A DNA stretch of 64,000 nucleotides, from NCBI GenBank assembly GCA_028864975.1, contig JAGWLG010000006.1, positions 1 through 64,000 of the forward strand, given 5' to 3'. The notes beneath the pieces were generated by a model, which saw only the letters and a list, made by a program, of their open reading frames with translations, was not told the origin of the DNA and ran no database searches. Shown here in pieces: positions 61,519 to 61,710 of the stretch (position 1 is its first letter; each line of letters starts with the position of its first letter). The stretch comes from Thermoplasmata archaeon (GTDB lineage Archaea; Thermoplasmatota; Thermoplasmata; Lutacidiplasmatales; UBA184). Both the position numbers and the translations under genes were made by a program.

Positions 61519-61570
61519 CCAAGGTCTCGGTGCCCCTGTGGCTCCTGGCGGCCCTCAAGAAGAGGGGAGC

Positions 61571-61674
61571 GCCCCGATCGGGAGTCTCCGAAGGCGGTTA
61601 GGACCGCCGCCCTCCTTTGAACCCGAGCCCACGGCTCGACAGACCGTGATCCTAGACCACTAGACTATCGGGGC
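61571..61674 (-). tRNA. tRNA-Asp(GTC) interrupted within the T-loop
   Basis: Read leftward from 61674: acceptor GCCCCGA pairs perfectly with the 3' strand TCGGGGC. A D-arm 'GTCTAGTGGTCTAGGAT' follows, then the anticodon stem ACGGT/GCCGT with a seven-base loop CTGTCGA (anticodon GTC). The T-stem TCGGG pairs with CCCGA, but TTCAAA and the 3' strand are separated by about 32 extra bases (about 61584-61615) that hold an internal GGCGG/CCGCC dyad. Removal of this insert restores a seven-base T-loop (TTCAAAT, or TTCAACT/TTCGACT with shifted ends) and a 72-nt tRNA. No CCA is encoded, and cca is in the window. A TATA box precedes it. Confidence 0.85.
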
Positions 61675-61697: not shown

Positions 61698-61710
61698 CCA
61701 TAATAAGGCC
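61698..61710 (-). promoter_or_regulatory. TATA box for the tRNA-Asp gene
   Basis: Read leftward the element is ggccttattatgg, centred about 30 nt before the first tRNA base. This is the usual distance for a tRNA transcript with a few extra 5' bases. Confidence 0.65.

Follow-up and report, generated by a model that had tools for sequence, protein, structure and literature searches.

The window analysed here, a 64,000-nucleotide stretch of a contig from a Thermoplasmata archaeon, carries on its minus strand, from position 61674 down to 61570, a gene for tRNA-Asp(GUC), GTC in DNA. Read along that strand, the gene runs GCCCCGA-TA-GUCU...-ACGGU-CUGUCGA-GCCGU-...-UCGGG-UUCAAA-[GGAGGGCGGCGGUCCUAACCGCCUUCGGAGAC]-U-CCCGA-UCGGGGC-G. 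The acceptor stem pairs at 7/7 positions and the T-stem at 5/5, and an insert of exactly 32 nt separates A59 from U60. The sequence-only reading of this DNA had described a tRNA-Asp(GTC) with perfect or near perfect stems and a probable intron of about 32 bases in the T-loop, all of which is borne out by the stems and the insert. The GGCGG/CCGCC hairpin that it noted in the insert is also present, as part of a longer inner helix of 8 bp. The elements of the locus are:

61616..61674, minus strand: exon 1 of tRNA-Asp(GUC), positions 1-59, from the acceptor 5′ strand to A59; acceptor paired 7/7 with 61571-61577
61584..61615, minus strand: predicted 32-nt intron at position 59/60, whose removal would leave the 7-nt T-loop UUCAAAU
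61570..61583, minus strand: exon 2, comprising U60, the T-stem 3′ strand CCCGA, the acceptor 3′ strand UCGGGGC and the discriminator G
61618..61621, minus strand: exon strand of the bulge-helix-bulge (BHB) central helix, U54 U55 C56 A57; partner 61586-61589, with three pairs plus A57.G
61586..61589, minus strand: intron strand of the BHB central helix, GGAG
61607..61614, minus strand: 5′ arm of the intron inner helix (8 bp), GAGGGCGG
61590..61597, minus strand: 3′ arm of the intron inner helix, CCGCCUUC
61700..61706, minus strand: TATA-like promoter element TTATTAT, upstream of the gene, ~26-32 nt from its 5′ end

Exon 1 presents the anticodon GUC in a 7-nt loop and ends with the T-stem 5′ strand UCGGG and the loop bases UUCAAA. 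Standard programs handle this arrangement poorly. ARAGORN detected the tRNA-Asp and turned the intron hairpin into a false T-arm (90 nt). The Rfam tRNA model skipped the T-arm and, at 20.2 bits, stayed under the gathering score. The covariance model R1 (below), built from T-loop-intron tRNAs with this gene among its seven training sequences, gave it 80.8 bits, a match far beyond chance. No Rfam intron family matched anywhere in the window, and a group I or group II self-splicing intron is ruled out by size, the insert being 32 nt long and the catalytic core hundreds of nucleotides.

Misreading by standard programs could be taken as a sign of a decayed pseudogene that has acquired an insertion. 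All of the stems are perfect, however, and a second, intact tRNA-Asp, named beforehand in the sequence-only reading as the mark of a pseudogene, was not found: a whole-genome tRNA-family scan (3.61 Mb, 124 contigs, 89.6% complete) returned 44 matches, none of them another tRNA-Asp, the closest kin being an intact tRNA-Glu(CTC) on contig C121. Because the assembly is ~90% complete, a gap could hold an intact copy; as the sole tRNA-Asp found in the genome, the gene is hardly a pseudogene. In other genera of the family, moreover, the orthologous tRNA-Asp is interrupted in the same way, with near-identical exons and introns of 31-34 nt that diverge strongly in sequence and keep the same fold. An AT-rich element lies at about the same distance upstream in eight relatives, in flanks that are otherwise dissimilar, consistent with a promoter from which the gene would be transcribed. 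Conservation thus already largely refutes the pseudogene reading, to which we attach next to no credence and which we rejected.

A bulge-helix-bulge motif across the T-arm

In each interrupted gene of the genome, seven bases (UUCRA, A or U, N) lie on the 5′ side between the T-stem and the inner helix; on the 3′ side, seven bases (NGRRNN, U60) lie between the inner helix and the T-stem. This spacing is exactly that of a canonical BHB motif, in which U54-U55-C56-R57 pairs with NGRR near the intron 3′ end and two 3-nt bulges flank the 4-bp central helix. The sequence-only reading had failed to find a strict motif and had suggested that a relaxed one might serve; in tRNA-Asp the two bulges and the two flanking helices are all accounted for, with a single A.G mismatch, so that the intron is not of the relaxed hBH or HBh′ kind, in which one bulge or flanking helix is missing. 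The predicted cuts fall after base 59 and before U60, and the predicted product carries the normal loop UUCAAAU. Another pairing, of GGAG at the intron start with CUCC, was discarded, as it gave no consistent inner helix and could not be generalised to other genes. A relaxed motif or a special endonuclease was likewise dropped once the central helix of UUCR with NGRR had been found.

In nine genes of this genome interrupted at the same site, 31/36 central-helix pairs form at the predicted register; no other register gives more than 25, and a count of 31 was never reached in 20,000 random-tail trials. In a wider set of 98 distinct genes, the acceptor stem pairs 7/7 in 98, the T-stem 5/5 in 97, and the spliced loop would read UUCRA(A/U)U in 98. 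Here the central helix forms 367/392 pairs; 74 genes have a complete set of four, whereas no shift gives more than three such genes, and G stands opposite C56 in 97/98. Position 57 covaries with its partner: C lies opposite in 61/67 genes with G57 and in 0/31 with A57 (Fisher p ~7e-20, uncorrected for kinship), the A57 genes always having G or U there, as does the tRNA-Asp of the window with its A57.G. The inner helix forms 362/392 pairs across the 98 genes, compared with 171 +/- 10 if each arm is matched to that of another gene, again uncorrected for kinship. For genes found with the covariance model R1 (below), the search itself partly favoured the motif; the nine genes were found before R1, yet the motif was defined on them.

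One caveat concerns folding. At minimum energy (-51.2 kcal/mol), the isolated 105-nt precursor takes a shape other than the cloverleaf; with the D-stem left out, the BHB cloverleaf comes to -37.6 kcal/mol. The T-arm segment of tRNA-Asp alone forms the T-stem and the inner helix, separated by a 7x7 internal loop, the central helix lying 3.2 kcal/mol above the minimum; among T-arm segments of relatives, the central helix is part of the minimum-energy fold in 55/90.

We propose that in the precursor the intact T-stem would serve as the outer helix, while T-loop bases 54-57 (UUCR) would pair with NGRR near the intron 3′ end as the 4-bp central helix. The 5′ bulge would then consist of A58, A59 and the first intron base, and the 3′ bulge of the last two intron bases and U60. 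A single-chain, two-domain alpha2 endonuclease would cut both bulges, and RtcB would ligate the exons to restore the normal loop UUCAAAU. With high confidence, then, the locus is best read as a working tRNA-Asp(GUC) gene whose archaeal intron at 59/60 is spliced by proteins.

Alternatively, the insert might be retained, and mature tRNA-Asp would then bear an extra hairpin arm projecting from the T-loop at 59/60. In a T-loop, bases 59 and 60 are usually flipped outward, which makes an extruded helix sterically conceivable, and the strong conservation of the inner helix would fit such an arm. The 3′ tail NGRR, however, covaries with position 57 and complements UUC, features needed only for a BHB motif, and insert length ranges from 13 to 47 nt across genes. 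The same tRNAs also occur without an insert in some genera (Glu-CTC and Arg-TCT are intact in this genome and interrupted in relatives), and the genome encodes both an endonuclease and an RtcB ligase. We therefore regard retention as very improbable, and splicing remains the preferred reading.

The genome's tRNA-splicing endonuclease (L047:1447-2571, minus strand) is 374 aa long, and its single chain contains two PF01974 units. In its C-terminal unit, Tyr304, His319 and Lys350, which from knowledge of the family we take to be the catalytic triad, are invariant in 18 sequences. The closest solved structures include 1r0v, the A. fulgidus alpha2 enzyme, and 5x89, from M. kandleri. By its sequence, the protein is of the two-domain alpha2 type and probably forms a homodimer. 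Spacing between the FG and LSL motifs is 8 residues in this enzyme and its relatives, as in 1r0v, and 18 (about ten extra) in 3p1y, by our reading the A. fulgidus enzyme carrying a crenarchaeal loop (construct described in PMC6379350). The wild-type spacing of 8 residues indicates that no specificity loop is present. Compared with the broad-specificity classes, (alpha-beta)2 with the CSL and ARMAN epsilon2 with the ASL, the enzyme has neither a Lys-bearing loop nor a three-unit architecture. Efficient removal of relaxed-motif introns is confined to (alpha-beta)2 and epsilon2 enzymes (PMC6379350), and euryarchaeal alpha2 enzymes cut only canonical BHB motifs (PMC4033280). That the introns retain the canonical motif thus matches the expected need of a loop-less enzyme. 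An alternative endonuclease type, as the sequence-only reading had suggested, is not required, since the genome carries an ordinary euryarchaeal alpha2 enzyme without the crenarchaea-specific loop.

Interrupted tRNA genes in the genome and its relatives

According to the sequence-only reading, T-loop introns are known mainly from Thermoproteota. The one in the window is neither a lone case nor a mark of Thermoproteota: at least nine tRNA genes of this genome, and the whole family to which it belongs, have them. The nine, identified from several truncated matches of the tRNA scan and a BLAST match (tRNA-His) absent from that scan, are Asp(GTC), His(GTG), Asn(GTT), Ala(GGC), Gly(TCC), Ser(GCT), Ser(GGA), Lys(TTT) and Arg(TCG). 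All nine keep a 7/7 acceptor stem and a 5/5 T-stem, with inserts of 28-41 nt. The 59/60 introns thus occupy one dominant site in about a fifth of the genome's tRNA genes. At the canonical 37/38 site, introns interrupt Tyr, Trp, Leu(TAA), Glu(TTC) and a further tRNA whose anticodon is CAT; the Tyr and Glu cases were also checked by eye. Intron-to-intron similarity across different tRNAs is weak (Asp/His, His/Ser-GGA and Gly/Lys at z 2.3-3.8, out of 36 pairs), and for this reason we make no claim of intron transposition within the genome.

Some further observations concern single tRNA genes of the assembly (G000). tRNA-Lys(TTT) (L043, G000:C38:9218-9363) has, besides its 59/60 intron, a second one in the D-loop, read by eye, whose central helix is UCGG/CCGA; a same-genus genome (G001) has a 146-nt gene, equal in length to L043, with a 41-nt 59/60 intron (L227). 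tRNA-Arg(GCG) (L045, G000:C32:210148-210253, minus strand) has a D-loop intron, likewise read by eye, in which the central helix UAGC/GCUA is perfectly paired. An odd Ser-like tRNA (L036, G000:C83:15780-15883), whose acceptor stem is imperfect and whose anticodon region is unusually long, is possibly a pseudogene, foreign or otherwise interrupted. Two tRNA-Ala(GGC) genes (L029 and L040, on G000:C2 and C97), one intact and one with a T-loop intron, have clearly different bodies. Two tRNA-Met(CAT) genes (L008 and L009, on G000:C77 and C100) are identical, each lies near a contig end, and they may be an assembly duplicate.

The covariance model R1 was built from seven T-loop-intron genes of the genome. 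It scored class I T-loop-intron tRNAs at 63-81 bits, vs at most 54.4 bits for the genome's intact or 37/38-intron tRNAs; the interrupted tRNA-Ser genes, at 33-40 bits, were left out of the R1 counts. Across 300 genomes of the class, R1 found 4-10 matches in all 71 genomes of the window's family, Lutacidiplasmatales, and mostly one match or none in other families, where intact tRNAs reach ~61.8 bits, so that counts of one need a length check, which was made for a subset. AcS11-62 is listed in PMC9287336 under Ca. Lutacidiplasmatales, Thermoplasmatota of acid soils. Glu(CTC), Arg(TCT), Gln(CTG) and Arg(CCG), intact in this genome, are interrupted in relatives, and this variation of the interrupted sets between genera indicates that gain or loss has occurred.

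Beyond the family, members of family f8 carry mcrA in 7/7 tested genomes and are therefore methanogens, which by our reading makes this family Methanomassiliicoccales. Their tRNA-Arg(TCT) has a 59/60 intron in all eleven genes read (e.g. L243-L246), 22-24 nt long and conserved, with a perfect UUCG/CGAA central helix; most of the Methanomassiliicoccales methanogens sampled have one T-loop-intron gene. Several families of the class have tRNA-Lys genes interrupted in the T-loop (L184, L186, L187). Outside the class, the Thermoplasmatota family f36 (L266, L268, L272) has several T-loop introns, some of only 16-17 nt, and its endonuclease is shorter at the specificity-loop site, with 4 residues vs 8. 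A search of open-access literature turned up no description of T-loop introns in Thermoplasmatota or Methanomassiliicoccales; tRNAscan-SE 2.0 surveys (PMC8450103) may list single cases.

How the introns spread may follow from the motif itself. Its exon half, T-stem plus UUCRA, is almost universal among tRNAs, which would make the site portable and can explain why many tRNAs of the lineage are interrupted at the same place. The introns might, in addition to being spliced, be kept as a shield of the tRNA 3′ half against integrases. The 3′ half of tRNAs is the usual attachment site of archaeal integrases, with the T-arm as the typical att region, and a 59/60 intron splits the T-arm. Protection against mobile elements has already been proposed for disrupted tRNA genes (PMC4390854). 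Presence and absence between genera, however, are also compatible with neutral gain and loss, and we consider such a role rather unlikely, albeit compatible with the splicing that we favor.

Relation to known tRNA introns

Position 59/60 is among the known non-canonical intron positions (PMC4090602). The introns described here share with the non-canonical BHB introns of Thermoproteales and other Crenarchaeota and of Nanoarchaeota (PMC4090602, PMC6379350) the 59/60 site, BHB recognition, proteinaceous splicing (predicted here) and their occurrence several per genome. They differ in phylum, in the strict BHB geometry at 59/60, and in the enzyme, a loop-less alpha2 here and an (alpha-beta)2 with the crenarchaea-specific loop there. 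Korarchaeum, held to be the only alpha2 archaeon with non-canonical introns (PMC4033280), is alike in combining such an endonuclease with introns at non-canonical positions, but its enzyme is said to have a specificity loop, which is absent here. The Asgard Atabeyarchaeia and Freyarchaeia (PMC11291895), likewise uncultivated wetland-soil archaea with many and often non-canonical tRNA introns, have them in 92-95% of tRNA genes, with several introns in over half, whereas here a single dominant site, 59/60, is used in about a fifth of the tRNA genes. Canonical 37/38 introns of Euryarchaeota, a kind also found in this genome, match in endonuclease class and BHB geometry; their position differs, and the exon strand of the central helix comes from the anticodon loop rather than from the T-loop UUCR.

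Introns at 59/60 were thus already known; what is new is the lineage, the scale, and the combination of a non-canonical position with a canonical motif and a loop-less alpha2 enzyme. Such genes are missed or mis-drawn by ARAGORN and the Rfam tRNA model, so genomes can seem to lack essential tRNAs. In Methanomassiliicoccus luminyensis, tRNA-Lys was not found by Borrel et al. (PMC4153887); given the T-loop introns in tRNA-Lys of several families, it may simply have been overlooked.

Reviews link non-canonical tRNA introns with Crenarchaeota, Nanoarchaeota and broad-specificity endonucleases (PMC4033280). Non-canonical position and relaxed motif, usually merged, come apart here, with one site and a mostly complete canonical BHB. 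We consider it likely that in a large part of Thermoplasmatota, including Methanomassiliicoccales, 59/60 introns are recognised through the portable T-stem and UUCRA by loop-less alpha2 endonucleases. In that case, the formation of a canonical BHB, and not a broadened enzyme, would set the limits on where introns can lie, and the published rule tying non-canonical introns to specificity-loop endonucleases would need restating. The coevolution hypothesis would thereby become directly testable, in principle also in cultured Methanomassiliicoccales.
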